From: an uncultured beta proteobacterium
GTDB taxonomy: Bacteria > Pseudomonadota > Gammaproteobacteria > Burkholderiales > Burkholderiaceae_C
Length of the DNA: 48,426 nt
Direction: 5' to 3'
Assembly (NCBI GenBank): GCA_903906695.1
Contig: CAIVLG010000081.1
Coordinates: 1-48,426, forward strand
Positions 1-31,710 of this stretch are shown in pieces. The position numbers and the translations under genes are program-made. The notes below the pieces were generated by a model. It made no database searches. It saw only the letters and a program-made list of their open reading frames with translations, and was not told where the DNA came from. How positions within the stretch are numbered: position 1 is the first letter of the stretch; every line of letters begins with the position of its first letter.

Positions 1-281
1 TCGCGCGAGATCAACTCCTCGGCAACACGCACGGCGTCGCCCGGATTGGCGTTGTCATCACGCGTGATCAGCTCAACCTGTTTGCCATTGACGCCGCCGC
101 TGGCGTTGACTTCATCGACCGCCAGCTCCATACCTTTCTTGTAGGGTTCCAGAAAGGCCGGCTGCGCCTTGTAGCTGTTGACCTCGCCGATCTTGATCAC
201 GCCCTGCGCATGCGCTGCGGGCAGCAAAGCACAAGTCATGGCAAAGCCGGCCGTGTACAGCATCGTTCTTAGCATCTTCAT
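1..281 (-). CDS. Branched-chain amino acid-type ABC transporter substrate-binding protein (truncated by window edge)
   Basis: Only the N-terminal ~93 residues are in the window; the gene continues past the left edge. It starts at an ATG with a GAGGAGA ribosome-binding site. The first ~26 residues form a Sec signal peptide (Lys/Arg start, hydrophobic core, AHA-type cleavage site). The mature start (GVIKIGEVNSYKAQPAF...) and the later GGVNGKQVELITRDDNANP segment are typical of LivK/Peripla_BP_6 periplasmic proteins. It is the last visible gene of the minus-strand run that carries the molybdenum hydroxylase and enamidase, 105 bp after the PF06684 gene. I infer that it binds the substrate of that pathway or a related acid; ligand specificity cannot be read from this fragment. 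Confidence 0.85.
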   Translation of the reverse strand, partial: MKMLRTMLYTAGFAMTCALLPAAHAQGVIKIGEVNSYKAQPAFLEPYKKGMELAVDEVNASGGVNGKQVELITRDDNANPGDAVRVAEELISR

Positions 282-331
282 GTCAAAGTCTCCTCAAATA
301 AAAGTTAAAAAAACAGGCTGGCAAAGTAGCA

Positions 332-358
332 TGGATGCCGGATCGAGTCCGGCATGAC
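332..358. repeat. Half copy of the dispersed palindromic repeat
   Basis: A perfect inverted repeat, ATGCCGGAT-CGA-GTCCGGCAT-like, followed by GAC. It matches the right arm of the longer element found at 1745, 7944 and 27248. It lies between the PF06684 gene and the binding-protein gene, where it could form an mRNA hairpin. Confidence 0.75.
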
Positions 359-386
359 AACGGTATATCGCGAACTTTCATCTCCC

Positions 387-971
387 TTATCTCAGGCCGT
401 CCTGGCCCACGATCTCACTAACCTGCAAACCACCAATGCGCGGCAAGGGGCGTCCGTTGGCTGTGACCACCACCGCGACCACGATCTCATTGGCGCGCGG
501 CGCGTCGCTGACGCGAGCCTCCATCGCGTCAAAGTGGCTGCGCACAAAGGCCGCATCCTTGTGCCCCAGCGGCACATCGAGCGCACTTCCAAGGCCGCCC
601 ATCTTCTTGGCCGAAGGCACTAGTGCCGCGCCCTTCTCGACCGCCTTGCGCAACGGGGCGCCGAGCTTGGGGTGCAGAATGGCTGCTGCATGCTCAAGCT
701 CGCCAGCCTCTCCCACAATGGCGCCCTTGCCATAGCTTTGCGCCTGCGCCGGCGTGATGCCCAGGGCCTCGACACACTTCTGCCCAAGCAGGCCGCCAAG
801 TTCCTCGCCGATGGCGATCAGTTCGTCAAGCTGCTGCGAATATTTGCCAGCATAAGGGTTCTCAATCACCGCCATGGCCAATGCCCGGCGTGTCGGAGGG
901 CTGACGGCCTGACCCATTTCAATCAGGGTTTCGTCCACCTGAACAATGATTTTTCTGATCTTTGCGCTCAT
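387..971 (-). CDS. PF06684 (DUF1185) 'amino acid synthesis' family protein, copy A
   Basis: 194 residues from the ATG preceded by GAAGGAAAG; an in-frame start 18 codons further up lacks support and overlaps the gene before it. The protein begins MSAKIRKIIVQVDETLIEMG and carries the family blocks YGKGAIVGEAGELEHAAA, the VPSAKKMGG segment and LDVPLGHKDAAFVRSHFDA. Structures of family members have a chorismate-mutase-like trimeric fold, but the name 'amino acid synthesis' rests on genome context and the reaction is unknown. Its paralogue lies directly upstream, 35 bp away. Both sit at the distal end of the hydroxylase/ring-reductase/enamidase operon. I infer a role late in that pathway, acting on a dicarboxylate or semialdehyde product. 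Confidence 0.85.
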   Translation of the reverse strand: MSAKIRKIIVQVDETLIEMGQAVSPPTRRALAMAVIENPYAGKYSQQLDELIAIGEELGGLLGQKCVEALGITPAQAQSYGKGAIVGEAGELEHAAAILHPKLGAPLRKAVEKGAALVPSAKKMGGLGSALDVPLGHKDAAFVRSHFDAMEARVSDAPRANEIVVAVVVTANGRPLPRIGGLQVSEIVGQDGLR

Positions 972-1006
972 GGTCTTTCCTTCAGATGTTGGTGGTGGGC
1001 CCGGCT

Positions 1007-1648
1007 TCAGCGCAAGCCGTCCCATTTGCTGACGGCGCTCGCTGCCAGGCCGCCGACGCGGGCGTGGACCCGCGGCCCCGTGCTCATTACCAGAATAAAA
1101 ACAATCTCCTGTGCCGACGGCGCACCCGGAACACGGACTTCCATCGCGTCGAAATGGCTGCGCACATAACTGGCGTTGATGTGCGTCAGTGGCACGTCAA
1201 GCGTGGCGCCGGGGCCACCGACTTTCTTTGTCGATGGCACGATCGCCAGCGCGTTGCCGGGCTGGCCGGTTTTCAGATCGACCTGTCCCTTGGCGTAGGC
1301 GCTGCGCTCACCTTTCCAGCCCAGCAGTTCGCGCATGGCGTAACCTCCCGGTACATGCCAGAGCGCACCGTGCTCCAGTTCTCCGTCGGCGCCGATGATG
1401 GCCCCTTTGCCATAGCCCTCGATGCGCTCGGCTGGCACGTTCATGGCCGCCAGCAGCCGCTGCGCCATCTCGACGCCGACCGGCTGCAGCTCGTCCATCA
1501 TGGGCAGGATGTTGGGTTCAAAGCGACCCGCAAAGGGATTCGTCAGCACCGCGCCGATCGCGCCACGCACAAGAGGTATTGCCGCGACCGGACCAAATTC
1601 ATGGTGGATTTGCTCCACCTGCGTAAAGATGCGTCTGATTTCAATCAT
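1007..1648 (-). CDS. PF06684 (DUF1185) 'amino acid synthesis' family protein, copy B
   Basis: 213 residues, starting MIEIRRIFTQVEQIHHEFG. It is clearly paralogous to the next gene: shared GYGKGAIIGADGELEHGA, PSTKKVGGPGATLDVPL and YVRSHFDAMEVRVPGAP blocks. It differs by an insertion of about 20 residues around residues 100-120 (WHVPGGYAMRELLGWKGER). Conservation of the acidic/His GELEH block and the Arg-Ser-His-Phe-Asp block suggests both copies keep an active site, possibly as hetero-oligomer partners or for different substrates. The reaction is not known. It follows the UPF0280 gene by 21 bp and is probably co-transcribed with the whole minus-strand operon. Confidence 0.85.
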   Translation of the reverse strand: MIEIRRIFTQVEQIHHEFGPVAAIPLVRGAIGAVLTNPFAGRFEPNILPMMDELQPVGVEMAQRLLAAMNVPAERIEGYGKGAIIGADGELEHGALWHVPGGYAMRELLGWKGERSAYAKGQVDLKTGQPGNALAIVPSTKKVGGPGATLDVPLTHINASYVRSHFDAMEVRVPGAPSAQEIVFILVMSTGPRVHARVGGLAASAVSKWDGLR

Positions 1649-1669
1649 GAAGTGATTCCATCCCGTCTT

Positions 1670-2716
1670 TCATGCAAATACCGCGCCAGTTTGCAGCTCG
1701 GCCAGGGGAGAAGAAAATTGCAAAGGTACTGGGTTGAAAAGGCCGTCATTGCGGACTTGATCCGCAATCCATGGCCCCGACCGCCTGGATACCGGGTCAA
1801 GCCCGGTATGACCGCGGTGTATCGACACTTCTCGATCCTCCAAGGTCCTTCGCGCGAGTTCCGTTTCCGCTGTGTCAGTAACCAGCACCTGCTGCTGGCA
1901 CACCAGTGCCGCCGACCAGATCAAGCCGGCGCGCCGCAAGGCTTGCGCCCGCAGCCATCCGGCACGCAAGGCCTGCAGCACCAGTCTGGACTCCAGCGGT
2001 GGCACATCGACCGTGACCAACATTTCGCCTAGATCGGAATCGTCTTTCAGATCACACGCAGGTCGGCGCACGATGCGCTCATCGGGCACATCGACCGCAT
2101 TGGCAATCACCGTGGCTGCTGCGTCGGCCGCCGCTGCGGTGGCGGCCAGCACCGTCACGCTGTCGGCAATGCCCAGCGAAAAACTGCGGCCGCGCCAGCC
2201 GCTGGTGGCCACTCCGCGCACCGGCATACGGCTGCTTACTTCAAACTGGCCGTCACTGTCTATGCCGCGGCGCAATGTCTGCGCATCAAGGCGCGCCAGG
2301 TCAGCGTACAGACCGACACGCACCGACTGCGAGGGTGCCAGGTACAGAGCGATGTCGCCACCGTTGTTGATCCAGGCACGCTCCACCCCCGCACGGTCGT
2401 AGCAACCGACAAGTTCCTCGGCAACGGCACCCGCCACTGCCGCCATCGGCGTGATGTAGCTGGCACTGTAAGGCTGACAAGCCTGCCACATGCGTCGTGC
2501 GATGCGCCCCTGCAGGGGGCAGCGACCACCGACCGGCAAACGCAACAATGGCAGTTCGCGCACCAGTTCATCGAGCACGGGCTGAAAGCGCTGCCACGCA
2601 GCTTCATGCGCTGCTTCGAGTGCAGCGACACTGCCCTCGGCACCGACGATGATGTCGATCGGCCCATGCTGAAAATGCCAGCGGCCATCGGAGAAGCGTG
2701 TGCGGGTTGCAGTCAT
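1670..2716 (-). CDS. UPF0280 (ApbE-like) family protein with a repeat-encoded C-terminal extension
   Basis: 348 residues from the ATG 14 bp after the upstream stop; no strong ribosome-binding site is visible, so coupling to the upstream gene is likely. Segments such as GRWHFQHGPIDIIVG, PYSASYITPMAAVAGAVAEE, WINNGGDIALYL and ATSGWRGRSFSLGIADSVTV are the family blocks. UPF0280 proteins are distantly related to the FMN transferase ApbE, and the GGDIAL element is shared with it. Function is unproven; covalent flavinylation or flavin handling for the neighbouring reductase is a guess from context. Family members are usually 240-290 residues. Here roughly residues 302-324 are translated from a copy of the dispersed palindromic repeat and about 24 more follow before the stop, so the natural C-terminus has probably been replaced or extended. 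Confidence 0.8.
   Translation of the reverse strand: MTATRTRFSDGRWHFQHGPIDIIVGAEGSVAALEAAHEAAWQRFQPVLDELVRELPLLRLPVGGRCPLQGRIARRMWQACQPYSASYITPMAAVAGAVAEELVGCYDRAGVERAWINNGGDIALYLAPSQSVRVGLYADLARLDAQTLRRGIDSDGQFEVSSRMPVRGVATSGWRGRSFSLGIADSVTVLAATAAAADAAATVIANAVDVPDERIVRRPACDLKDDSDLGEMLVTVDVPPLESRLVLQALRAGWLRAQALRRAGLIWSAALVCQQQVLVTDTAETELARRTLEDREVSIHRGHTGLDPVSRRSGPWIADQVRNDGLFNPVPLQFSSPLAELQTGAVFA
1745..1812. repeat. Full copy of the dispersed palindromic repeat, inside a coding region
   Basis: Two palindromic arms (GTCATTGCGGACTTGATCCG... and ...CCGGGTCAAGCCCGGTATGAC) separated by a short spacer. The layout matches the copies at 7944 and 27248. This copy lies within the 3' part of the UPF0280 reading frame, which passes through it without a stop. 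Confidence 0.85.
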
Positions 2717-2730
2717 GACTGTTGTGCGTT

Positions 2731-4266
2731 TCAGCCCAACATGGGCGGCTGTCCCAGCGGCCATGGATTGTTGGCAGAGGCCTGCAGCCACTGTCTGGCC
2801 AGCGGCGCACCTTCACTGTGCCAAGCGCCCCTTTGCAGCGCATCTTCGAGCGTGCGCACATAGTCCATGTGACCCCCGAGGGCGCGGTAGTCCGCCGTCT
2901 TCATGCTGAATTCGATAGGCGCAATGATGGCCGGCGTGGGCACGGTACCAAAACTGTTGTCGGGCATGCGCATGACATCCACCATCACCGTGATGCCGCC
3001 GCCCGGCCAGACGTAAGCCGGCGCACCGCCGCAGGTCACGTTGACCAGCCCGTTCTTGATGGCACGTGTCAGCAGCACCGGGTTCTCCGTCACACCGGCA
3101 CGCAGGCTGCCACCAGCGCCGGCCAGAAAAAGTACGGTCGTCAGCGAGGGTTCGCAGTTTTCACCGACGCGCTCCACCACGGCGCGCACCTCGGCCGGCA
3201 TTTCCTGCTCAACCGGTTTCAAGGCCTCATCCAGCACGTACCAGCTGGCATGCTCGCCGGTGGTCGAGGTCATCAGCAGACGCAAGCCGGGCCAGGCCAC
3301 TTTGGCGTCCCAGCCCTCGATGATGGACAGCGGATCGGCGATGTCGGTACCGCCCCAACCGGTGCCCGGATTGGCCACTTGAAAATAGCGCCCGGGCGTG
3401 GACTTGCGACCGTGCATCTGGATGCCGGAGGGCCGCATGTCGAGACAGCGCCCGGCCTGATGTTCGGTCAGCACGCCAGTGATGTGGTCGTCCACCACCA
3501 CCACCTCGTCGGCCTTGCCGAGCAGTTGCTCGGCGAAGATGCCGACGGTGGCGGAGCCGCAACCGACGCGCATGCGTTTTTCCTCGACACCGTTGACGAT
3601 GGGCGCTCGACCGGCCTGTATCAGGACCTCGGAGCCGCCCTCAATCGAGAGCGCCACCGCCTGCTTGTTGCCCAGCGCCTCCATCATTTCGACCGTCACC
3701 CGCCCCTCTTTCTTGCTGCCACCGGTGAGGTGATGCACACCGCCCAGAGAAAGCATCTGCGAGCCGTACTCGGCGGTTGTCACGTGGCCAACGACCTCGC
3801 CCTTGCAGCGCACAGGAGCCTGCTCCGGTCCCAGAAAACGGTCGGTATCGATCTTTACCTTCAAGCTGCAGTAGCTGAAGATGCCCTCGGTCACCACCGT
3901 CACCGTATCAACGCCCGCCACCGTGGACGAAACAATGAACGGCGCTGGCTTGTAGTCGGGGTAGGTGGTTGATGAACCGACACCGGTAATGAAAACATCG
4001 TCACCCGTGATCGGTTCTGCGGGCGGTGTCTGCGCATCGGCAGCGTCATGGCGTTCCCGCGCGAGAAACGGAACCAAGGCCGGTTCTGCCTTGCTCAACT
4101 CGCGGCGCAGCATCAGCACCGGATCAACGCGCACCAAGGTACCGTCGCGATTCGCATAGCGGTCGCAGGCACCCATGCGACCGTTGGTGATCTGGCACAA
4201 CACCGGGCAGGCATTGCATGCAATCTTCTGGTTTGGTGCACCGTCAATTCTTTTGGATCCGGTCAT
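2731..4266 (-). CDS. hnr: 6-hydroxynicotinate reductase-like iron-sulfur/flavoprotein
   Basis: 511 residues from the ATG 22 bp after the hydroxylase stop. The N-terminus carries four cysteines (C17, C20, C24, C34) in IACNACPVLCQITNGRMGAC, suited to a [4Fe-4S] cluster. The rest (FITGVGSSTTYPDYKPAPFI, YGSQMLSLGGVHHLTGGSKK, GGTDIADPLSIIEGWDAKVA, TCGGAPAYVWPGGGITVMVD) resembles, from memory, proteins annotated as 6-hydroxynicotinate reductase. In Eubacterium barkeri that enzyme uses reduced ferredoxin to convert 6-hydroxynicotinate to 1,4,5,6-tetrahydro-6-oxonicotinate, the substrate of enamidase. An enamidase-like gene and a molybdenum hydroxylase in the same operon make a ring-reductase role likely. 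Whether the ring is nicotinate or another N-heterocycle cannot be decided from sequence. Confidence 0.75.
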   Translation of the reverse strand: MTGSKRIDGAPNQKIACNACPVLCQITNGRMGACDRYANRDGTLVRVDPVLMLRRELSKAEPALVPFLARERHDAADAQTPPAEPITGDDVFITGVGSSTTYPDYKPAPFIVSSTVAGVDTVTVVTEGIFSYCSLKVKIDTDRFLGPEQAPVRCKGEVVGHVTTAEYGSQMLSLGGVHHLTGGSKKEGRVTVEMMEALGNKQAVALSIEGGSEVLIQAGRAPIVNGVEEKRMRVGCGSATVGIFAEQLLGKADEVVVVDDHITGVLTEHQAGRCLDMRPSGIQMHGRKSTPGRYFQVANPGTGWGGTDIADPLSIIEGWDAKVAWPGLRLLMTSTTGEHASWYVLDEALKPVEQEMPAEVRAVVERVGENCEPSLTTVLFLAGAGGSLRAGVTENPVLLTRAIKNGLVNVTCGGAPAYVWPGGGITVMVDVMRMPDNSFGTVPTPAIIAPIEFSMKTADYRALGGHMDYVRTLEDALQRGAWHSEGAPLARQWLQASANNPWPLGQPPMLG

Positions 4267-4288
4267 GGTTGCAAATGTAGCGTGAGTC

Positions 4289-7057
4289 TTATTTTTTCGC
4301 CAGGATCGCTGCGCGCACCCGGTCCGGTGTCGCCGGGATTTGACGGATCCGCACGCCCACGGCCTTGTGGATCGCATTCAGAATGGCGGGCGCCGTCGCC
4401 ACCAGTGCCGGCTCGCCCACGCCCTTGGCGCCATAGGGTCCGAGCGGCTCGCTGTCTTCGATGATGTGAACCGTGATCGGTGGGATGTCACCCACCGTCG
4501 GGATCACGTAATCGTGCAGGTTGTCGGTGCGCCCACTGATGTACTCTTCCATCAGGGCCAGACCCAGGCCTTGCGCCACGCCGCCGTGGATTTGCCCTTC
4601 GACCTGCGTCGGATTGACAGCGCGTCCCACGTCATGCGCGGCATGAATGTGCAGCACCCGGACCGTGCCGAGTTCGATATCGACCTCCACTTCGGCAATC
4701 TGGGCCGCAAAGCCGTAGGTCGCGTAGGGCACGCCCTGACCGTTGGCATCGAGCGGCACGGTCGGCGGATTAAAGTAGCCTTGGCCCGAGAAAACATCGC
4801 CGCGATCACTGGCCGAAAGGCTCGCCAGGTCCAGTTGGCGTTCAACATCTCCGTCGAGGCCAGTGAGGATACCTGCGTCCAGGCGCAGGCGGGTGCTTTG
4901 CCCCAGATCCAGCGCCTGCAGCAGCTGACGCCGAAGATCTTCACCGGCGAATCTGGCGGCATTGCCGGAGACGAAGGTCTGACGCGACGCCGAAGACTTG
5001 CCTGCATCTTCGGTCAGATCGGTATCGCCCATCACCTGATCAATCAGCGCCACCGGCAAACCCACCGCGTCGGCAAATATCTGCGGTATCACGGTGCCGC
5101 TGCCCTGGCCTATTTCCTGCGCGCCGTTGTAAAGCATCAAGCGGCCGTCGCGGCGCAGAGCGCCCACCATGGTGGAGGGATTGGCGATCACGGTGTTGCC
5201 GATGCCATACCACATGCTGGCCACGCCGACACCGCGTCGCAAGGGGCTGCTGTTCGCTTCGGCCCGGGTGTTGAAGGTCTGCACCATCGCCCGTGCCGTC
5301 TGCCAGGCCGGTCGCAACACCTCCAGGCACTGCACCATGCCCACACTGGCCGCAAGCACCTGTCCGGTGGCCGTCGCCTGACCGACGCGAATCGCGTTCT
5401 TGAGTCTGAACTCGAACGGGTCGATGCCAACCTTGTCCGCGAGTTGGTCGAGCAGGGCCTCGGTCACGATGTGCGCCTGCGGCACACCGAAGCCGCGAAA
5501 CGCACCCGAGATGGCGTTGTTGGTGTACACCGCCCTGGTCAGCGCCCGCAGATGTGGCACATAGTACGGACCGGTCGCGTGCACCGGCACCCGATTGGCC
5601 ACTGTGCTGCCCCAGCTGGCGTAAGCACCGGTGTTGAAATCACCGTGAAAATCCAGCGCGGTCAGCCGACCCTCGGCGTCACAGCCGAAGCGGGCGCGAA
5701 TGCGTGACGGGTGTCGCTTGGTGGTGGACTGCATCGATTCCAATCGACTGTAGACCGTGCGCACTGGGCGCTTGAGCTGCCACGCTGCCAACGCCAGCAG
5801 CGGTTGGATCGATACATCGAGCTTGCCACCAAAACCTCCACCCACCGCCGAAGGCACGATGTGCACGGCCTGCTTCGGTAGCTTGAGCACACGCGCCACC
5901 TCGTCGCGGTCCATCACCGGGGTCTGAGTGCAGGCGAAGATGCGCAGGCGCTGCTCGCCGTCCTGCTCGAACACTTCGGCGTAACCCGCTTCCGGTTCGA
6001 TGTAGGCATGCTCGACATAGCTGGTGCGGTATTCATCTTCGGCCACAAAGGCCGATTGCGCCAACGTGGCAGCGGCGTCGCCCTTGACGACACGACCACG
6101 GCACAGCACGTTTTCTGGGGCAAAGCCGTGCAACAACGCACCGGTCGCCGTCAGTGCCTTCTCGCTGGTATCGAGCGGCTCCTCGACTTGCCAGCTGATG
6201 GGGATGTCACCCTCGTCAATCGCCTGGACTGCCTCCATGGCACCGACAATGAGCAGCACGGCCTCGCCGCGCATGCGCACATGGCCGTCCGCCAGCACCG
6301 GCTGATCCTTGGGTTCCGCAAAGACCGCAAAGCTGTTTTCCGGCACATCCGTGGCGCTGAAGACAGCGACCACCTGCGGATGCCGGCGCTTGAAGGCGTC
6401 AAGGTCGCCGAGCGTGAAGCTGGCACGCGCATGCGGCGAGCGCACCGTTCGCAGCCACAGACTATCCACCGGATACTGGTCAGCACCAAACTTTTCGGCG
6501 CCGGTGATCTTGGCCTGGCCGTCGAGTCGGGCCAGCCGTGCACCGACTGCGTGACCGGCAGCGGGCGCAGGTAGATCGAACTGGCCGTGCGCAACATCGA
6601 GCACCGCCTCGATGATCTTGCGGTAGCCGGTGCAACGACACAGCACGCCTGCCAGGCCATCCTGCACCTGCTGTTCGGTCGGCTTCGGATAGCGTCGCAG
6701 CAGGTCAGAGGCAGCCATCAACATGCCCGGTGTGCAAATGCCGCATTGCGCCGCACCGTGGGCCAGGAAAGCCTGCTGCAATCGGCCGATCTTGCCGTCG
6801 CAGGCCAGTCCTTCAACCGTGGTCACGTCCCGGCCGTCGCACTGCGCCACCGCCGTGATGCACGAGCATATCTGCCGGTCGTCGAGCAGCACGGTGCAGG
6901 CACCGCAGTCGCCCGAATGGCAACCGATCTTGGTGCCAGTCAAACCCAGATCGTCGCGCAGCAAATCCGACAAGCGCTTTGCCGGGTCGGCGAGGACCTC
7001 GATCGCCTTGCCGTTCAGGTTCAGACAGATTGTCTGCATGGCAGCGGTCTTATTCAT
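4289..7057 (-). CDS. Molybdenum hydroxylase, fused [2Fe-2S] and molybdopterin subunits (xanthine dehydrogenase family)
   Basis: 922 residues. Residues ~8-85 form the plant-type [2Fe-2S] domain (C46, C51, C54 and C64 or C66). Residues ~90-160 form the helical [2Fe-2S] domain (CGIC at 105-108, CRC at 140-142). From ~172 on is the large molybdopterin subunit, with GGGFGGK, GAFRGFGVPQ and the C-terminal GAKGVGEPA motif carrying the catalytic Glu. The small and large subunits are normally separate in CoxSL-type enzymes; here they are fused, as in the Desulfovibrio aldehyde oxidoreductase Mop, but an FAD subunit is encoded directly upstream. The start overlaps that gene's stop (ATGAATAA), so the two are probably translationally coupled. 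Such enzymes hydroxylate N-heterocycles next to nitrogen with water as oxygen source. From context I infer hydroxylation of nicotinate or a similar ring before reduction. Confidence 0.92.
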   Translation of the reverse strand: MNKTAAMQTICLNLNGKAIEVLADPAKRLSDLLRDDLGLTGTKIGCHSGDCGACTVLLDDRQICSCITAVAQCDGRDVTTVEGLACDGKIGRLQQAFLAHGAAQCGICTPGMLMAASDLLRRYPKPTEQQVQDGLAGVLCRCTGYRKIIEAVLDVAHGQFDLPAPAAGHAVGARLARLDGQAKITGAEKFGADQYPVDSLWLRTVRSPHARASFTLGDLDAFKRRHPQVVAVFSATDVPENSFAVFAEPKDQPVLADGHVRMRGEAVLLIVGAMEAVQAIDEGDIPISWQVEEPLDTSEKALTATGALLHGFAPENVLCRGRVVKGDAAATLAQSAFVAEDEYRTSYVEHAYIEPEAGYAEVFEQDGEQRLRIFACTQTPVMDRDEVARVLKLPKQAVHIVPSAVGGGFGGKLDVSIQPLLALAAWQLKRPVRTVYSRLESMQSTTKRHPSRIRARFGCDAEGRLTALDFHGDFNTGAYASWGSTVANRVPVHATGPYYVPHLRALTRAVYTNNAISGAFRGFGVPQAHIVTEALLDQLADKVGIDPFEFRLKNAIRVGQATATGQVLAASVGMVQCLEVLRPAWQTARAMVQTFNTRAEANSSPLRRGVGVASMWYGIGNTVIANPSTMVGALRRDGRLMLYNGAQEIGQGSGTVIPQIFADAVGLPVALIDQVMGDTDLTEDAGKSSASRQTFVSGNAARFAGEDLRRQLLQALDLGQSTRLRLDAGILTGLDGDVERQLDLASLSASDRGDVFSGQGYFNPPTVPLDANGQGVPYATYGFAAQIAEVEVDIELGTVRVLHIHAAHDVGRAVNPTQVEGQIHGGVAQGLGLALMEEYISGRTDNLHDYVIPTVGDIPPITVHIIEDSEPLGPYGAKGVGEPALVATAPAILNAIHKAVGVRIRQIPATPDRVRAAILAKK

Positions 7058-7898
7058 GGATAGCCTCTTCGATGGCACGCCTGACCAGCGTCAGCGCTGC
7101 ATCGCGCCGGTACGCGGCGCTGCCGCGCACATCGTTTATGGGGCTGAGCACCTGCAAGTCCTGCGGCTCGGCCAAAGCCGACAAGCCGCTCGCCGCGCGG
7201 CGCCCCAGCAGCTTTTGTTCCAGAGTGCGCAGTCGTTGCGCCACTTCGGAGCAGGAGCCCACGGCAATGCCGGCGTGGCGGATAACACCCCCAGCGTCGG
7301 TGTCGATCAGCACCGACACCATGGCGATAGAGATCACCAGATAGCGTCGGTTGCCAAGCTTGACAAAACTCGATCGCGCACACTCGCGCCGCGGCACCAG
7401 GATGGCGGTCACCAGTTCCCCGGGCAGGCGCGCAGTGCGCCGGTTGCCCAGCACAAACTGGCTCAGTGGCACACAGCGCCGACCCGTGAGCGAGGCCAAT
7501 TCCACCTGTGCGTCCAAAGACAGCAGCACCGGAATGCCGTCCGCCGATGGCGATGCATTGCAGACGTTGCCGGCCACAGTACCGACGTTCTGCACCTGGA
7601 TGCCACCCACGTCGCGAGCCGCCTGTTGCAGACCACGAAATTGTGCGGGCAAGGCGGCGCGGGCAATCTGACTCCAGGTCACCGTCGCGCCAATGCGCCA
7701 TTGCGTTCCATCGTCATGCAGGGTTTGTAACTCGGGCAGCGCCGTGATGTCCAGCACCGATTCGGTGATCGCCTGACCACTGCGTGCGGCATAGAAATCG
7801 GTGCCCCCCGCCAGAATCGTCAAGGGCTGCTGCGCCAGGGCACTCAAGGCTTCGTCAAGGCGCTGCGGCCGCAGATAAACGCAAGTCGTGCTCGTCAA
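7050..7898 (-). CDS. Molybdenum hydroxylase FAD-binding subunit
   Basis: CoxM/XdhB-type FAD subunit of ~282 residues. It has the FAD pyrophosphate motif AGGTDF near residue 30 and the second flavin motif NVGTVAGNVCNASPSAD. I place the start at a TTG with an AGAGAGG site 8 bp upstream, because this gives the normal family length and begins just before CVYLRPQRLDEALSAL. The frame stays open for 40 more codons to an ATG, but that part is translation of the dispersed palindromic repeat at 7944 and is unlikely to be natural protein. The C-terminus overlaps the start of the fused Fe-S/Mo subunit. It passes electrons from the Fe-S clusters to an acceptor, NAD or ferredoxin; which one is not visible. 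Confidence 0.85.
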   Translation of the reverse strand: MTSTTCVYLRPQRLDEALSALAQQPLTILAGGTDFYAARSGQAITESVLDITALPELQTLHDDGTQWRIGATVTWSQIARAALPAQFRGLQQAARDVGGIQVQNVGTVAGNVCNASPSADGIPVLLSLDAQVELASLTGRRCVPLSQFVLGNRRTARLPGELVTAILVPRRECARSSFVKLGNRRYLVISIAMVSVLIDTDAGGVIRHAGIAVGSCSEVAQRLRTLEQKLLGRRAASGLSALAEPQDLQVLSPINDVRGSAAYRRDAALTLVRRAIEEAIHE

Positions 7899-7943
7899 TT
7901 CGGGTGCCTCTCTGACGGAAACAGGACTTGCTGATATCCCGTT

Positions 7944-8012
7944 GTCATTGCGGGCTCGACCCGCAATCCAGTGCATGCGTGGCACTGGATCCCGGATCGA
8001 GTCCGGGATGAC
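7944..8012. repeat. Full copy of the dispersed palindromic repeat
   Basis: Left arm GTCATTGCGGGCTCGACCCG and right arm CCGGATCGAGTCCGGGATGAC flank a ~16-bp spacer. It sits between the enamidase stop and the FAD-subunit start, in the operon's transcribed leader, and is open in the FAD-subunit frame. Confidence 0.88.
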
Positions 8013-8066
8013 AAACAACGTACATCCGCCATTTTTTCCATTTCCTTCTCTTGTCGCGTGCTATGC

Positions 8067-9266
8067 CTAACGCGCCGGAGCCAGCACCACGGGAATTTCG
8101 GTGGCCGGCGGCGTGTTGCGGCTGCGGCCACAGCGCACGATGCCGTCAATCATCACCATGCCAACGCCCGGGATGTCGCCCAGCGCAATGCTGTCAAGCA
8201 GGTCACGTCCGGCGGAATGCTGGGCCTTGTCCATAAAGACAAAATCGGCAGCGCGCCCGACTTCGATCAGGCCGCAGTTCAGATTGCGCAGGCGCGCCGT
8301 GTTGCCGGTGGCAAAGCAGAACACCAGTTCTGCCGGAATGCCACCCAGGCTGGACAGCAGCGCCACCATGCGCAGCATGCCCAGCGGTTGCACGCCCGAG
8401 CCGGCCGGGCCGTCGGTGCCCAGAATCACGCGGTGCGGACACTTGAGCGCCAGCGCGGCCTGCGCTGCGGCAATGGCCACTTTCTCGTTGCCGTTGTGAA
8501 CAATCTCGATGGCCCGCGACGACTTTTCGCAAAGCTCGCAGACATGGGCCTCCGACAGCGCGGTGTGGCCGCCGTTGATGTGGCCAATGACGTCGGCGTC
8601 GGCTTCGAGCACAACGTCTTTGTCGATCAAACCCGAACCGGGGATGGAAGGCCCACCGGTGTGTATCGTGCTCTGGATGCCGTACTTGCGGGCCCAGCGA
8701 ACCATCTCCGCAGCCTCGTAACCGGCCTTGACGGAGCCCAGTCCAACCTCGCCCAGCAGTGTCACGCCGGCGTCGGCCAGGTCCTTGAAGTCCTGCTCGA
8801 CCATGCCTTTTTCGATGATGGGAGCGCCGGCCAGCACCTTGACGCCGCCGGGGCGGAAATTGTCAAAGGCGCGCTGCGCCGTGATCGCCAGGGCTTTGAG
8901 GCCGACGATGTCTTTGGGGCGCCCCGGCAGATGCACTTCACCGGCCGAGATCATGGTGGTCACACCGCCATTCATGGTGGAATCGATCCAGCCGGTCTGG
9001 TTCTGCCGTGGTGTCCAGTCGCCAAACACGGGGTGCACATGGCTGTCGATCAGACCCGGCGCGACGCAGGTGCGCCGCGCATCGATCACGGTCTGTGCCT
9101 GTGCAGTGTCGCAGTCCGCCTCCTTGCCTACGGCAACGATCAGCCCATCGTTGATGACCACCGTATCCGCGTCCAGAACGGGACCGTCGATGTCACCCGA
9201 CAGCAGCAGGCCGATATTTCGGATCACAACTTTTCCGGACTTTTCAGTCGGCGCTGCAGTAGCCAT
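8067..9266 (-). CDS. ena: Enamidase-like cyclic amidohydrolase
   Basis: 399 residues, ATG with AAGGAG eight bases upstream. The ordered blocks VIRNIGLLLSGDIDGPVLDA, TMNGGVTTMISAGEVHLPGR, LLGEVGLGSVK and the SRNTPPA tail closely resemble Eubacterium barkeri enamidase as I recall it. That enzyme hydrolyses 1,4,5,6-tetrahydro-6-oxonicotinate to 2-formylglutarate and ammonia. Candidate metal ligands are H76 and H78 (DSHVHP), a bridging E173 in GEVGLG instead of the usual carbamylated Lys, H202 (IHTGG), H229 (GHING) and D285 (GTDGP). It is the first gene of the compact catabolic run, 101 bp below the TetR gene, with a possible operator in that gap. A related cyclic enamide or lactam is the alternative substrate. 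Confidence 0.88.
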   Translation of the reverse strand: MATAAPTEKSGKVVIRNIGLLLSGDIDGPVLDADTVVINDGLIVAVGKEADCDTAQAQTVIDARRTCVAPGLIDSHVHPVFGDWTPRQNQTGWIDSTMNGGVTTMISAGEVHLPGRPKDIVGLKALAITAQRAFDNFRPGGVKVLAGAPIIEKGMVEQDFKDLADAGVTLLGEVGLGSVKAGYEAAEMVRWARKYGIQSTIHTGGPSIPGSGLIDKDVVLEADADVIGHINGGHTALSEAHVCELCEKSSRAIEIVHNGNEKVAIAAAQAALALKCPHRVILGTDGPAGSGVQPLGMLRMVALLSSLGGIPAELVFCFATGNTARLRNLNCGLIEVGRAADFVFMDKAQHSAGRDLLDSIALGDIPGVGMVMIDGIVRCGRSRNTPPATEIPVVLAPAR

Positions 9267-9329
9267 GGCGGACTCCTTTGGTGCAGGTACAGCAACTCCG
9301 ATGTTGACACCGACGCGCTGATTTGGTTA

Positions 9330-9351
9330 AGTGTTTACAACATTCAGTGTA
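9330..9351. promoter_or_regulatory. Candidate operator upstream of the enamidase operon
   Basis: AGTGTT and AGTGTA are separated by 10 bp, with an internal ACATTCA. The same hexamer pair, separated by 8 bp and with the complementary TGAATGT inside, lies upstream of the AOR gene at 11799. Both operons flank the TetR gene, so this may be its binding site. Inferred from two sites only. Confidence 0.35.
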
Positions 9352-9367
9352 GCAGAGCAAACAGCGC

Positions 9368-10051
9368 TCAGGCACGCGCAACGACGCGCAAAACCGCATC
9401 GGTAACGACGCTCTCCCAATGCGACAGGGCGGCTGCGGCTTCAAGGTCCTGCCCCAAAAAGGCTGAGAGCGTAAAGCGATTGGAAAGGTAGAAGTAGCAC
9501 AGCGATGCAATCGTCAGGTAAACATCGCGTGCCTGCACGTCGGGGCGGAACACGCCCTTGGCGATGCCGCTCCTGAGCACCTGATCCAGGATCGCGATGG
9601 CGGCGCTGGAATACTCGCGGGCCCGCATCGACTTGGAGATGTGCACGCCGCGGTGCAGGTTTTCGCTGTTCAGCAGGGTGATGAATTCCGGGTGCTTCTG
9701 GTAATAGTTCCAGGTGAAGAGCACCACCGTGCGGAGTGACTCGATCGGCTGCTCCATGTCCAGATCGACCTTGGCTTCGGCTTCGCAAAAGCGCCGGTAA
9801 ATTTCTTCCAGCGCGGCAATGAACAAGCCTTCCTTGCTGCCGAAGTAGTAATAGATCATGCGGTCATAGGACTTGGCCGCTTTCGAGATTTTCTCGACCC
9901 GACCGCCGGCAAAGCCGCCCTTGGCAAAGACCTTGATTGCCGCCTTCAGGATGCCCTCGCGTGTTGCCTGCGCCGCAAGCTTGCGCATGCCGGGCCGCTT
10001 CAGCGCCGCAGTCGTGCGACTTCTCTTGGCTTGAGGCACCACCGTGGCCAC
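9368..10051 (-). CDS. TetR/AcrR-family transcriptional regulator
   Basis: 227 residues if the GTG start 16 bp after the AOR stop is used; an ATG 21 codons in (MRKLAAQATREG) is the alternative. The helix-turn-helix spans about residues 30-75 (ILKAAIKVFAKGGFAGGRVE, then YDRMIYYYFGSKEGLFIAAL). The C-terminal ligand domain contains HPEFITLLNSENLHRGVHI, a pattern seen in TetR regulators of N-heterocycle and pyrimidine catabolism such as NicS and RutR relatives. It sits between the AOR gene and the enamidase operon, in the same direction. I infer that it represses one or both in response to a pathway intermediate. Confidence 0.88.
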   Translation of the reverse strand: MATVVPQAKRSRTTAALKRPGMRKLAAQATREGILKAAIKVFAKGGFAGGRVEKISKAAKSYDRMIYYYFGSKEGLFIAALEEIYRRFCEAEAKVDLDMEQPIESLRTVVLFTWNYYQKHPEFITLLNSENLHRGVHISKSMRAREYSSAAIAILDQVLRSGIAKGVFRPDVQARDVYLTIASLCYFYLSNRFTLSAFLGQDLEAAAALSHWESVVTDAVLRVVARA

Positions 10052-10067
10052 GATTCAGAAACCGAGC

Positions 10068-11783
10068 TCAGGCGGTGGCGAGCAACTGGTCGAGGCAGCG
10101 GTTGACCTCGCTGGCGCGATGGCGCGCCAGATTGCCGGTGGGCGCCAGCGCCTCGTCATAAAAAAAGGTCGGCAGCTCGTCGTCCTGGTCCGTGAAACCG
10201 GCCTGTCGGTTGAACTCCCACTCAAGTTCCAGCACTTCGCGTCCGATCTTCTTCAGAAAAGATTCCTCCAGCGCGGTGCCGTGCGCATCGTTGAGCGCGG
10301 TCACGATCAACTGCGGATTGGTGTCGGTCACGGAGCGCCCGAAGATGCAGAAACCCAGGGAATCGGCTGCGGCTGACGACACCTGCGCGCCCAGGCTCGC
10401 GGCCACCAGTTCGTCGGTGCTCTTGCCCTTGCAATCAAAGGCGGGGAGGTTGCCCGCCGTGTGATCCGCCCCCTGCGCCGTCAGCATCATCGAGATGCCG
10501 GTGACCTCGATCACGCGCGGATCGTAGGCACTGATACCCTGGCGTTTGATGACCGGCACGCGCGCCACCTTGAAATGCTCACCAACCCGAAACGCCCCGT
10601 GCGCCAGCAGGCGTCCGCGCTCGTTGCCCAGTCGAATGTCGTCCAGCGCACGCATCATGAAATCGGCATCGCCAAAGGCCGCCTGCCCGGCTTCCATCAG
10701 CACGCCCAGCGTGGCGCCGAGTTCAATGGTGTCTATACCCAGGTCGTTGGCGACCGCGTTCAGGCGCGCCACATCATCGGGGTCGTGCAAGCCACAGTTG
10801 CTCCCGACCAGTCCCAACGTTTCGTATTCCAGCGGTGACACCAATTCCTGGCCCTTGTCGTCGAAATAGACGTTGCTGCATTCGATCATGCAACCGGGCA
10901 TGCAGTCGTGCGCCGTCTTGCCGCCGCGCGACAGATTGAGTTCGCGGATGTAGGCGCCGCCGAGCTTGAACGGGCCATCCTTCTCTTCGACCATGCGCCC
11001 GGCGCTGAAGTTGCGCACCGGCAGACCACCGATGTAGTTGGTCAAATCCGCCACCATCGCAGTACCCAGGCGCTTGAAGTTGTCGATGGCCGGTTCCTTG
11101 CCGAGCTTGGCACCGTATTCGCGAACCGCGCCCATGACCTTTTGCCGATCATGAAAGGTCGGCATCTTGTGCGTATCGACGACGATGGCCTTGACTTTCT
11201 TGGTCCCCATCACGGCACCCACGCCACCGCGCGCCGCCAGCCGGGACGGCCGGCCATCGGTATCGGCAAAGGAAATTCCGGACATCAGACCCAGGTACTC
11301 GCCAACCGGGCCGCAGATGGCAAAGCTGATCTTCTTGCCGTATCTCTCGAGCAGCAGCCGCGCCACCTCGTTATTGCCCTTGCCCAGATAGGGCTCGGCG
11401 CTCTCAAACGCGATCTGGCCGTCCTTGGTAATGCGAATGACGGTCCACTCCGGTGCTGCGGCGTGCAACGTGAAGCCGGCAATTTCAAGTTGCCCGAGTG
11501 CGAAGCCGAAGCTGCCCCCCGTATTGGCCTCCTTGATGCCGCCGGTGAGCGGACTCTTGCAGCCGACGCTGAGGCGATTCGCATTGGAAAAGTTGGTACC
11601 GGCAAAGGGACCGGCCGAAAAGATCAACGGGTTCTGCTCCGACATCGGATCGACCGTAGCCGCGCCCATATCAAGCAGCTTTCGGGCGATGAAGTAGCGC
11701 CCGGCGCGAACGATCGCCTCGCCTTGCAGTTCTTCGGTCTGGATCGATTGGTCCGGCAGATGGATGTCGAGGTACTTGCGCAT
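10068..11783 (-). CDS. Aldehyde:ferredoxin oxidoreductase (AOR), tungsten/molybdenum bis-pterin family
   Basis: 571 residues, slightly short of the usual ~600. The N-terminal AOR_N domain includes NPLIFSAGPFAGTNFSNANR and NTGGSFGFALGQLEIAGF. Cluster cysteines are C294, C298 and C302 (CMPGCMIEC) and C479 in DSLGFCIFG. The family oxidises aldehydes to acids, reducing ferredoxin, with a tungstopterin or molybdopterin cofactor. No ferredoxin or NADH-linked partner subunits like those of the Aromatoleum aorABCDE operon are beside it. Enamidase would yield an aldehyde (2-formylglutarate in E. barkeri) and the ring reductase needs reduced ferredoxin, so this AOR could close that redox loop; this is inference. 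It is followed directly by the TetR gene and probably co-transcribed with it. Confidence 0.9.
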   Translation of the reverse strand: MRKYLDIHLPDQSIQTEELQGEAIVRAGRYFIARKLLDMGAATVDPMSEQNPLIFSAGPFAGTNFSNANRLSVGCKSPLTGGIKEANTGGSFGFALGQLEIAGFTLHAAAPEWTVIRITKDGQIAFESAEPYLGKGNNEVARLLLERYGKKISFAICGPVGEYLGLMSGISFADTDGRPSRLAARGGVGAVMGTKKVKAIVVDTHKMPTFHDRQKVMGAVREYGAKLGKEPAIDNFKRLGTAMVADLTNYIGGLPVRNFSAGRMVEEKDGPFKLGGAYIRELNLSRGGKTAHDCMPGCMIECSNVYFDDKGQELVSPLEYETLGLVGSNCGLHDPDDVARLNAVANDLGIDTIELGATLGVLMEAGQAAFGDADFMMRALDDIRLGNERGRLLAHGAFRVGEHFKVARVPVIKRQGISAYDPRVIEVTGISMMLTAQGADHTAGNLPAFDCKGKSTDELVAASLGAQVSSAAADSLGFCIFGRSVTDTNPQLIVTALNDAHGTALEESFLKKIGREVLELEWEFNRQAGFTDQDDELPTFFYDEALAPTGNLARHRASEVNRCLDQLLATA

Positions 11784-11798
11784 AGGCGACTCTCAGTC

Positions 11799-11818
11799 AG
11801 TGTTCTGAATGTAGTGTA
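11799..11818. promoter_or_regulatory. Candidate operator upstream of the AOR gene
   Basis: AGTGTT and AGTGTA separated by 8 bp with internal TGAATGT, matching the site at 9330 in hexamers and, inverted, in the core. An adjacent imperfect palindrome, GTACGC-N7-GCGTGC, follows at about 11815-11833. Confidence 0.35.
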
Positions 11819-11867
11819 CGCTTAATTGGCGTGCAGTCACCACCTCTCGCCGGTCACCCCAGCGTAG

Positions 11868-12944
11868 TCAGGACGCCAGCGTCGGATAGTCCGTGTAGCC
11901 CTTGGCATCTGGCGTGTAAAAGGTGGCCATGTCCGGCGCATTGAGTGAAGCATTGGCGCCCATGCGGTCAACCAGATCCGGATTCGCCAGGAAGGGGCGG
12001 CCAAAGGCGATCAGATCGGCCTGGTTTGCGGCGAGGGCGCTTTCGGCACTGGCTCGGTCAAAGCCGCCGGCCAGGATGAACGGACCTTTGAATGTGGCGC
12101 GCAGCAAAGCCTTCAACTCGGCCGGCACCGGCGGCGCGCCCATCGCCGAATGGTCAAGCACGTGGAGATATAGCAAGCCCAGCGCAGAGAGCTCAGTCAC
12201 CAGCGCCAAATATTGCGCATCGACTTCAGGGAAGGCGCCGGTGCCATTGAAGACGCCATAGGGCGACAGCCTGATCCCGACACGCTCGGCCCCAATGGCT
12301 GACGACACTGCGCGCACGAGTTCCAGCGCAAACCGGTTGCGCCCCGTTATGCCATCACCGTAGGCGTCGCTGCGTTGGTTGACGTTGGGATTCAAGAACT
12401 GCTCGATCAGGTAGCCATTGGCGGCGTGCAATTCAATGCCATCGAAGCCGGCCTCAATCGCCAGTGTGGCAGACCGGGCGAATTCTGCGACGGTTGCTGC
12501 AATATCTTTTTCGGTCATGACGCGCGGCCTGCTGTGGGGCTGCATTCCCAGGGCATCGGTGTACATCTCGCCCGGGCAGGCCACGGCCATGGGACCGATC
12601 ACCTCGGCGCCCGCGGGGAGGTTGGCGGCATGCGAAACGCGACCCGTGTGCATCAGTTGCACCACGATCTTGCCACCCCGGGCATGCACCGCATCCGTCA
12701 CCAGCTTCCAGCCCTGCACCTGGTCTGCATTGAACAGGCCGGGGATGCGGGCATAGCCCAGACCGTTTGGCGAAGGGGAAACACCCTCGGTCACGATCAG
12801 GCCCGCCGAGGCACGCTGACCGTAGTACTCGGCCATCAATGCGTTTGGCGTATTGGCCTGCACGGCCCGGCTACGTGTCATCGGCGCCATGACGGTCCGA
12901 TTGCTCAGTTGCAGCTTGCGAGCGGTAAATGATTCAAAAAGCAT
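11868..12944 (-). CDS. Old yellow enzyme-family alkene reductase (NemA-like)
   Basis: 358 residues; I chose the ATG with AAGGAA upstream, giving MLFESFTARKLQLSNRTVMA. It is an FMN-binding TIM barrel with the family landmarks VMAPMTRSRA, GLIVTEGVSPSPNGLGY, VQLMHTGRVSH, the substrate-binding HAANGYLIEQFLNP motif with the His-x-x-Asn pair, and ILAGGFD with FGRPFLANPDLV near the C-terminus. OYEs reduce activated C=C bonds with NADPH. It lies 84 bp upstream of the AOR gene on the same strand, with DUF924 50 bp before it. A link to the heterocycle operon is possible but unproven; a general electrophile-detoxifying role is equally likely. Confidence 0.93.
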   Translation of the reverse strand: MLFESFTARKLQLSNRTVMAPMTRSRAVQANTPNALMAEYYGQRASAGLIVTEGVSPSPNGLGYARIPGLFNADQVQGWKLVTDAVHARGGKIVVQLMHTGRVSHAANLPAGAEVIGPMAVACPGEMYTDALGMQPHSRPRVMTEKDIAATVAEFARSATLAIEAGFDGIELHAANGYLIEQFLNPNVNQRSDAYGDGITGRNRFALELVRAVSSAIGAERVGIRLSPYGVFNGTGAFPEVDAQYLALVTELSALGLLYLHVLDHSAMGAPPVPAELKALLRATFKGPFILAGGFDRASAESALAANQADLIAFGRPFLANPDLVDRMGANASLNAPDMATFYTPDAKGYTDYPTLAS

Positions 12945-12994
12945 GGTGATTCCTTGGGTGGGTCGAAACAAACAGTCCACCAGCCGAGTCGCTT

Positions 12995-13540
12995 CTAAAA
13001 CGACGAGCCCGGTGTTTGCAGAACGTCGAACTCTTGTGGCGTTGAGGTACGGCCCAGAAGGGTATTGCGGTGCGGGTAGCGTCCGAAACGGTCGATCACT
13101 TCCTTGTGGCGCAGCTCAAAATTCAGGTTGTCCTCCATACCAAGCGCACTGAACAGAGAAACTGCCAGCGTGTGAATCAGCGGCGACTCGCTGTGCATAT
13201 AAGGCATATAGAGAAAGGCCCGACGCTCGACTGCGAGCTCGTGGTCGGCCTCGACCGCCACCGCCGTTTGTGCCAGCCCCAGCGCCAGCGCATCACAGAC
13301 AAAGGCTTGTGGCTGCTCCCGATAAATATTGCGCGAGAACTGGTCCAGCACAATGATCTCAGCCAGGCGACCGCTGGCTGTCTCGCGCCAATCATAAAGC
13401 TCACATTGCGCGGCAACTCGGTGCAAGGCGCCGAAGCGCGACTCGATCAGCTGGTCGAAGTCATCTGATCGCGCCCACCACTGTTTGGGTGCTATTTCCT
13501 CAAACCAGAAATTGAGGACGGATTCGGATGTTTGACTCAT
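12995..13540 (-). CDS. DUF924 (PF06041) family protein
   Basis: 181 residues, ATG with AGGAG nine bases upstream. It shows the family pattern: VLNFWFEEIAPKQWWARSDD at the start, IIVLDQFSRNIYR in the middle, FLYMPYMHSE, and HKEVIDRFGRYPHRN near the end. The fold is helical and TPR-like; the conserved His/Arg/Trp residues suggest a small-molecule or protein-binding site, but no function is established. It probably shares a transcript with the alkene reductase 50 bp downstream. Confidence 0.88.
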   Translation of the reverse strand: MSQTSESVLNFWFEEIAPKQWWARSDDFDQLIESRFGALHRVAAQCELYDWRETASGRLAEIIVLDQFSRNIYREQPQAFVCDALALGLAQTAVAVEADHELAVERRAFLYMPYMHSESPLIHTLAVSLFSALGMEDNLNFELRHKEVIDRFGRYPHRNTLLGRTSTPQEFDVLQTPGSSF

Positions 13541-13542
13541 TG

Positions 13543-13877
13543 CTATTTGCTCCTGAGCGAAGGCATGACAAAGGGCGCAATGGTAACCTTGCGGAAGGAG
13601 GACGAGAGCGAGGGGCAGCGCATGCCATGTTCAGGCAAGGTCAGTCTGTGTTCAACAAGGTGGTGCATGAAGACGCCGGGCAACGCGGTGTTGACCAGTC
13701 CCTGACGGACTGAGCTGATGCAAGCGGCCGCCATCGAACCGTTAAGGTCGATTGCGCCCGTGGCGTCCTCGATCACATAGCTCTCAGCTTCCTCTCCAAG
13801 TCGGGAATGAACACCTGAACGGTTTCCCAGAACAGGTCAAATGGAATAGACTGCTGCGGCATTGAAGCAATCGATCC
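13543..13877. other. Gap between convergent/divergent units with no recognised gene
   Basis: On the minus strand a 29-codon frame (13773-13862, ending LERKLRAM) joins through a GTGA overlap to a 77-codon frame (13543-13776, starting MIEDATGAIDLNG) that stops 2 bp before the DUF924 start. Neither matches a family I know, and neither has a clear ribosome-binding site. They may be remnants of a deleted gene next to the LysR fragment. Confidence 0.35.
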
Positions 13878-13993
13878 TTGGATAGTCAACTCACATTCTC
13901 AGAAATATGCACCTCTTTGTGGAAGAGACCAAGGCAGGCAGTTTCAGGCGCGCGGCGGAGGTTTTTCCCGTTGAGAAGATGGCGAACTTATGA
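13878..13993 (+). pseudogene. LysR-family regulator N-terminal remnant
   Basis: A TTG-started frame reads MDSQLTFSE and then shifts; the neighbouring frame continues MHLFVEETKAGSFRRAAEVF. Joined, they resemble the first helices of a LysR-type helix-turn-helix (xLFVxVxxxGSFxRAAE). The rest of the regulator is missing. The second frame ends in TGA overlapping the ATG of the following reductase gene (ATGA), so translation of the remnant could still feed that gene. Confidence 0.5.
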
Positions 13994-24313: not shown

Positions 24314-24395
24314 CTAGGGGTGCTGGTTGTCGCGAGCTGACCGGCTGAGAAAAAACCCTGGAACTTGATCAAGGTAATTCTTGCGCAGGGAAGCG
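24314..24395 (+). promoter_or_regulatory. TPP riboswitch (THI element)
   Basis: The conserved core is present in order: GGGGTGC, then GGCTGAGAAAAAACCC, then GAACTTGATCAAGGTAATTC and CGCAGGGAAGCG. These correspond to the P2/P3 CUGAGA pyrimidine-binding loop and the P4/P5 pyrophosphate-binding helices of thiamin pyrophosphate riboswitches. The 5' strand AGGGGTGC can also pair with GCACCCC near 24432, about 25 bases before the ribosome-binding site AAGGAAA, suggesting control by switching between the two pairings. It precedes a TonB receptor, a PnuT-like permease and a kinase. Confidence 0.95.
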
Positions 24396-24463
24396 ATGTT
24401 GATTCCGTAGGGCCTGAGCCCGACTCTTTCTGCACCCCCCTGCCGTCGACTAAGGAAATTTCG

Positions 24464-26638: not shown

Positions 26639-26641
26639 AGC

Positions 26642-31683: not shown

Positions 31684-31710
31684 CCCCGCTTGTACTTTGG
31701 AGCTCCTGCA

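Follow-up and report, generated by a model that had tools for sequence, protein, structure and literature searches.

Nicotinate fermentation in Eubacterium barkeri is reportedly encoded by a gene cluster that Alhapel described in 2006. A nicotinate cluster was published in 2012 for four alphaproteobacteria, Azorhizobium caulinodans, Bradyrhizobium japonicum, Rhodopseudomonas palustris and strain SG-6C, and the 6-hydroxynicotinate reductase of SG-6C shares 42% identity with that of E. barkeri (PMC3511419, in the sections cited here). According to the same sections, A. caulinodans converts 1,4,5,6-tetrahydro-6-oxonicotinate (THON) to tricarboxylic acid cycle intermediates via glutarate (PMC3511419), and an excerpt of PMC9304392 names A. 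caulinodans together with E. barkeri for this route, under the wording 'anaerobic pathway'. Here we analyse a 48,426-nucleotide stretch from an uncultured beta proteobacterium (assembly GCA_903906695.1, contig CAIVLG010000081.1, here C81, of a 4.42 Mb genome), called the window below, which encodes a homologue of 6-hydroxynicotinate reductase (HNR) within a tight gene run. Homology and comparative gene content make it very likely that this operon serves reductive nicotinate catabolism, with a fused 2Fe-2S/Mo hydroxylase (MOFE) and its flavin adenine dinucleotide (FAD) subunit in place of a NicAB-type hydroxylase.

The alphaproteobacterial cluster, likened by its text description in the cited part of PMC3511419, appears to be of the same kind as that of the window. 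HNR, enamidase (ENA) and, as a prediction for the window, nicotinate dehydrogenase appear to be common to E. barkeri and the window, but the E. barkeri hydroxylase consists of four subunits, whereas that of the window is one fused chain plus an FAD subunit. The later E. barkeri genes, from 2-formylglutarate onward, are not seen in the window stretch (none among 11 scanned proteins from 387 to 14976, with 12995-13540 outside the scan and the far side of the cluster cut by the contig end). The window also has a pair of PF06684 proteins. A sequence-only reading of the window had presented such a route as a novelty for aerobes; we reject this part, because the cited sections of PMC3511419 report the route for aerobic Azorhizobium as well as the cluster, which is also common. 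New here is the comparative part, namely the pattern of enzyme swaps and which helper genes accompany which step.

Composition of the gene cluster

The cluster is a minus-strand run with the transcription order TetR, ENA, FAD subunit, MOFE, HNR, UPF0280, AA2, AA1 and the start of a LivK-type gene, AA1 and AA2 being the PF06684 proteins. Domain, family-model and PDB matches for the named genes bear out the run as it had been proposed from sequence. The intergenic gaps from HNR to AA1 are about 14 to 35 bases with the starts as chosen here.

HNR (2731..4266, chosen start 4266) is 58-78% identical to homologues in 26 plasmid records, of which 17 are annotated as 6-hydroxynicotinate reductase, three as hypothetical and six without product. 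Its nearest named kin are Burkholderiales. HNR matches no Pfam family in a scan of the window proteins, and a Pfam scan of three HNR proteins with E values up to 10 returned only a weak GCV_T_C match (0.004-0.03), so that DUF39, considered as a possible remote relative of HNR, was not among the matches; the single match of an HNR profile to the PDB is at chance level (E 1.5). The Cys4 N-terminus noted earlier is well conserved in 12 sequences, with Cys23 and Cys33 invariant and both Cys16 and Cys19 kept in 90% or more (L013 is annotated with a later start).

MOFE (4289..7057, chosen start 7057) joins a 2Fe-2S part at its N-terminus and Mo domains in a single chain, and its partner (7050..7916, provisional start) is an FAD subunit of the xanthine dehydrogenase type. 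Chains A, B and D of E. barkeri nicotinate dehydrogenase (3hrd) match MOFE with 264.7, 217.7 and 148.2 bits, which in sum exceed the best single PDB chain, 1dgj (385.3 bits).

ENA (8067..9266) is an enamidase-like amidohydrolase. Set against the characterised E. barkeri enamidase, a comparison that the sequence-only reading had suggested, it gives its best PDB match (2vun, 369 bits over 381 residues, E 2.5e-109), and the next PDB match reaches 30 bits. The positions that we take to be the metal ligands (HxH, Glu, two His, Asp) are all kept, as that reading had claimed. By homology, ENA is a predicted ring-opening enamidase.

In the proposed route, the ATP-binding cassette (ABC) transporter would bring the substrate in, MOFE with its FAD subunit would convert nicotinate to 6-hydroxynicotinate, HNR would reduce 6-hydroxynicotinate to THON, and ENA would hydrolyse this cyclic enamide to 2-formylglutarate and ammonia. 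UPF0280 would serve HNR in maturation or with a cofactor, and the PF06684 pair would act on the ring-opened product, en route to glutarate. The earlier proposal that an N-heterocycle is hydroxylated, reduced and hydrolytically opened is supported, most likely with nicotinate as the substrate, given the E. barkeri matches and the published cluster.

Exchange of hydroxylases and ring openers behind HNR

A scan of genome_contigs found at least 595 stretches that encode an HNR relative, and the best 80, all betaproteobacterial, were taken as loci. Together with 10 plasmid loci (of 26 matches), five of the six from a further search and 31 others, they form a set of 126 loci. The count excludes the window, L001-L010, which are short, L106, whose HNR is cut, and the other 16 plasmid matches. 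Among 398 Pseudomonadota genomes sampled evenly, HNR was present in 32, one of them the window genome, and six of the 36 genomes searched from the window's genus carry it. With so many HNR stretches and genomes, the cluster is not a product of chance.

The hydroxylase beside HNR is NicAB-type in 80 of the 126 loci, MOFE in 26 and both in none; two plasmid records label such genes as nicotinate dehydrogenase. Among the best 80 of the at least 595 stretches, 62 carry NicAB, 17 have no hydroxylase in the stretch, and only L021, from the window's genus, has MOFE. The NicAB clusters of Variovorax, Acidovorax, Polaromonas, Paraburkholderia and others (among L022-L100) are otherwise close to that of the window: HNR is 69-81% and enamidase, where seen (67 of 79), 74-90% identical, and UPF0280, PF06684, the transporter and mostly TetR are shared. 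In family f66, all nine sampled loci have NicAB, ENA (scored genome-wide) and AA1 without AA2, whereas the window has MOFE, ENA, AA1 and AA2. A NicB orthologue with cytochrome c domains was not found in the window genome, where the best match, at 42%, is to a 781-aa frame at another place.

In an HNR tree of 81 rows, with betaproteobacterial rows thinned, the window HNR falls in an eight-row set (support 97) of five sequences from the window's genus, all with MOFE, and three from Polaromonas, all with NicAB. The window MOFE groups with those of L104 (support 100) and L105 (support 98), which are loci with the caprolactamase-like HyuAB pair (HYU) from other families of the same order. Because HNR groups with NicAB-bearing Polaromonas and MOFE with L104 and L105, the hydroxylase was most likely exchanged in the window's genus, from NicAB-type to MOFE plus FAD subunit, while the core and the enamidase stayed. 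That a core of NicAB lineage carries a MOFE from another Burkholderiales lineage argues for MOFE as a nicotinate hydroxylase.

The ring opener is exchanged as well. HyuA and HyuB of L012 match caprolactamase subunits best, at 482.5 and 309.2 bits, below the cut-offs of 1000. Genome-wide, with thresholds of at least 60% identity for ENA (18 genomes) and at least 65% for HyuB (16 genomes), the 32 HNR genomes have ENA only in 16 cases, HYU only in 14, both in two (G181 and G251) and neither in none (Fisher p 5e-7, kinship ignored). In the 126 loci, where the ring-opener label is genome-wide for 31 and by stretch content for the others, the complete sets are NicAB+ENA (69), MOFE+HYU (16), MOFE+ENA (7), NicAB+HYU (4) and MOFE with both openers (2). 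The remaining 28 are incomplete: ENA without hydroxylase (12), NicAB without opener (7), neither (5), HYU without hydroxylase (3) and MOFE without opener (1). Two hydroxylases and two ring openers are therefore interchanged behind HNR, and each of the four possible pairings occurs. On the HNR tree, the fewest changes are five for the hydroxylase and three for the ring opener, and five independent pairs, a number too small for a test, give no sign of coupling between the two. What the sequences show directly is the genes with their families, the pattern of replacement and the linkage.

Several points weigh against assigning the operon to nicotinate. All substrates, all reactions and the roles of the transporter, UPF0280, PF06684 and the neighbouring aldehyde:ferredoxin oxidoreductase family protein (AOR) are ones that we infer. 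The counts are of sequences with kinship ignored, and at least 595 stretches matched, of which the 80 loci are the closest. The NicAB label combines the submitters' annotation with the domain layout (Mo domains plus cytochrome c). For the FAD subunit, 4zoh_B (111 bits) is a closer match than 3hrd_C of E. barkeri (92 bits), MOFE stays below the cut-offs of two models, with 580 bits against 830 for selenium-dependent xanthine dehydrogenase and 543 bits against 1100 for an aldehyde oxidoreductase, and L015, L016 and L148 are HYU loci without a hydroxylase in the stretch read. The operon might instead apply the same chemistry to a related N-heterocycle, such as another pyridine carboxylate, or take 6-hydroxynicotinate made elsewhere. 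MOFE lies below the cut-off of every NCBIfam model that it matches, and the substrates of Mo hydroxylases shift easily, both of which would suit such an alternative, but both ENA and the hydroxylase, the latter in its Mo and Fe-S parts, match nicotinate enzymes of E. barkeri, and NicAB and MOFE interchange beside the same HNR. We regard a different substrate as unlikely and retain nicotinate as the very probable one.

The PF06684 pair

PF06684 is found twice in the window (239.1 and 221.5 bits, cut-off 27), in AA1 (387..971) and AA2 (1007..1648), which belong to two different subfamilies. The nearest solved structure is 2qtp (SPO0826, 290 bits) for AA1 and 3byq (BB2672, 170 bits; 2qtp 125 bits) for AA2, and the cited part of PMC2954203 describes both structures as hexameric, with a fold that is a variant of Bacillus chorismate mutase (BCM).

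AA1 (at least 60% identity) is present in 18 of 18 ENA genomes versus one of 14 HYU-only genomes (G439; Fisher 4e-8, kinship ignored). By locus, it is present in 80 of 80 NicAB loci, seven of seven MOFE+ENA loci and one of 16 MOFE+HYU loci. Because all 80 NicAB loci carry it, AA1 follows NicAB as well as ENA. The idea of AA1 as a strictly enamidase-only partner is refuted by its presence in four NicAB+HYU loci and in L013. In G181 and G251, the HNR loci have AA2 only, and ENA lies elsewhere, beside an AA2-AA1 pair, with no HNR in 20 kb. Since ENA and the pair occur together away from HNR, PF06684 is tied to ring opening and not to HNR. The pair probably handles the ring-opened product, because AA1 accompanies ENA and the pair adjoins the HNR-distant ENA; the sequence-only reading had placed PF06684 after ring opening, where it probably belongs.

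The HNR-less loci with ENA and the PF06684 pair (G181, G251; L180, L181) lie near genes for a nucleoside-type ABC transporter, a Bmp-type binding protein, a nucleoside hydrolase and an isochorismatase-family protein. This neighbourhood in L180 and L181 perhaps reflects production of nicotinate from nicotinamide riboside-like nucleosides. Further PF06684 copies are found in varied surroundings (among nine loci, L182-L190, those of L182, L183, L186, L188 and L190 are near FAA-hydrolase, flavin-reductase, monooxygenase or epimerase-type genes).

The cited sections of PMC7913881 describe TgnF, which stimulates succinate semialdehyde oxidation in Acinetobacter (the source cited there concerns the trigonelline pathway), as homologous to HcdD, a BCM-like PF06684-type protein. 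We tentatively propose that PF06684 proteins turn over 2-formyl-dicarboxylates or their enamines, here 2-formylglutarate to glutarate semialdehyde, with TgnF acting on a compound one carbon shorter, and that HyuAB is a THON lactamase that replaces the enamidase; this joint proposal is somewhat unlikely to hold in full. We infer 2-formyl-dicarboxylates as the PF06684 substrates. Among the open-licence papers searched, none links nicotinate with caprolactamase. Alternatively, the pair could be regulatory or structural and no enzyme of the pathway, which is possible, if not favoured. The family has been suggested to contain environmental sensors (PMC2954203, cited part), efforts to detect an effect of HcdD were unsuccessful (PMC7913881, cited part), and PF06684 is not in the stretch of two MOFE+HYU loci (L105 and L151), nor, by this search, anywhere in genome G197. 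Against a non-enzymatic role, PF06684 keeps company with the enamidase, and 11 residues are invariant in 13 members from both subfamilies (Lys82, Glu91, Glu93, His94, His100, Ser120, His137, Arg144, Ser145, His146 and Asp148).

UPF0280 as a companion of HNR

UPF0280, also COG2122 (1670..2716, chosen start 2716), matches its family model NF003322 with 402.8 bits (cut-off 290). A profile search of the PDB gave 2o34 (6e-11) and four further matches at chance level. UPF0280 follows HNR in 124 of 125 loci, and the exceptional locus ends 142 bases past HNR. L166 (G075) was excluded from this count; its HNR is spread over two overlapping frames and may therefore be broken or misassembled. The C-terminal tail of the window protein is lengthened by an in-frame repeat (1745-1814), and the tail end GAVFA still matches relatives.

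The HNR of E. barkeri reportedly contains a covalent flavin. UPF0280 could accordingly be imagined as the flavin transferase that attaches such a flavin to HNR, a role suggested by its fixed place after HNR and by a profile-profile match to 11 ApbE proteins (E 2.8e-7, probability 93, versus 0.2 and 0.1 in the HNR controls). Against this, the alignment (UPF0280 columns 100-207 of 309, ApbE columns 142-255 of 276) covers the C-terminal half of ApbE only and leaves its HxxDPxTG segment opposite a gap, so that the ApbE likeness is partial, and the Pfam ApbE model stays below its cut-off (E 0.0022 in L014, 0.023 in the window). Furthermore, the cited sections of PMC5764234 state that the homology of COG2122 to ApbE seemingly stops short of the flavin-binding region, that COG2122 is required with DUF39 for homocysteine synthesis in Desulfovibrio, and that others have proposed persulfide handling. 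We consider the transferase role rather doubtful.

The COG2122-DUF39-NIL/ferredoxin homocysteine system, as far as the cited part of PMC5764234 goes, resembles the window locus in that a UPF0280/COG2122 protein is tied to one enzyme system, but differs in that the partner here is HNR. DUF39 (PF01837) was found in none of 249 sampled Pseudomonadota, so UPF0280 has a partner other than DUF39 here. Its work for HNR may be in flavin, sulfur or cluster handling. None of the open-licence papers searched links ApbE or UPF0280 with 6-hydroxynicotinate.

Neighbouring genes

The TetR regulator (9368..10051, by domain scan) has a homologue within 70 of the 80 betaproteobacterial loci. At the other end of the run, the substrate-binding protein of an ABC transporter, LivK-type, begins at ATG 281-279 and is truncated at the contig end (1..281); a LivK-type gene after AA1 is also present in L021, L101, L102, L103 and L106.

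Upstream of TetR lies AOR (10068..11783, minus strand), a candidate pathway member. It might oxidise the aldehyde from ring opening and charge ferredoxin for HNR. AOR is beside the cluster in L021 and L102 too (87-88% identity; two of three informative genus mates), and ferredoxin-NADP reductase (FPR), which is near HNR in 56 of 80 NicAB loci, was not found in genomes G000, G027, G029 and G033. This role is nonetheless improbable: AOR is not in 20 kb of L101, its orientation with respect to HNR in the window is not the one seen in L021 and L102, and FPR is present in G011 and G386 and near HNR in six MOFE loci (L013, L019, L020, L153, L163 and L164). A link between FPR loss and the MOFE swap, suggestive within the genus, was dropped in view of G011 and these six loci.

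Repetitive extragenic palindromic (REP)-like repeats lie among the operon genes at 332-360, 1745-1814 (the one in the UPF0280 tail) and 7933-8014; taken alone, their short core does not exceed chance in the window, with 5 matches versus 3.1 expected. Farther along, the window encodes a TonB-dependent receptor followed by a nicotinamide mononucleotide transporter family protein (24365-27328), and a methylmalonyl-CoA-mutase-like subunit followed by a MeaB-type GTPase that continues into a thioesterase-like domain (31690-34649). Elsewhere, a gene for a Rieske-type ring-hydroxylating oxygenase lies in or beside the cluster of L013, L019 and L104, and might act in N-methyl pyridine demethylation ahead of the pathway.

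Discussion

The distribution of HNR over Pseudomonadota genomes indicates that reduction of the nicotinate ring is not confined to anaerobes. The swaps serve as a natural test of function, in that enzymes which take each other's place ahead of or behind one and the same reductase are expected to have a common substrate. HNR is, besides DUF39, a second fixed partner for UPF0280. If the proposed turnover of 2-formyl-dicarboxylates is true, the PF06684 step would be the point at which the proteobacterial route parts from that of E. barkeri. Three items are directly testable: MOFE as the hydroxylase, HyuAB as a THON lactamase, and PF06684 as acting after ring opening.

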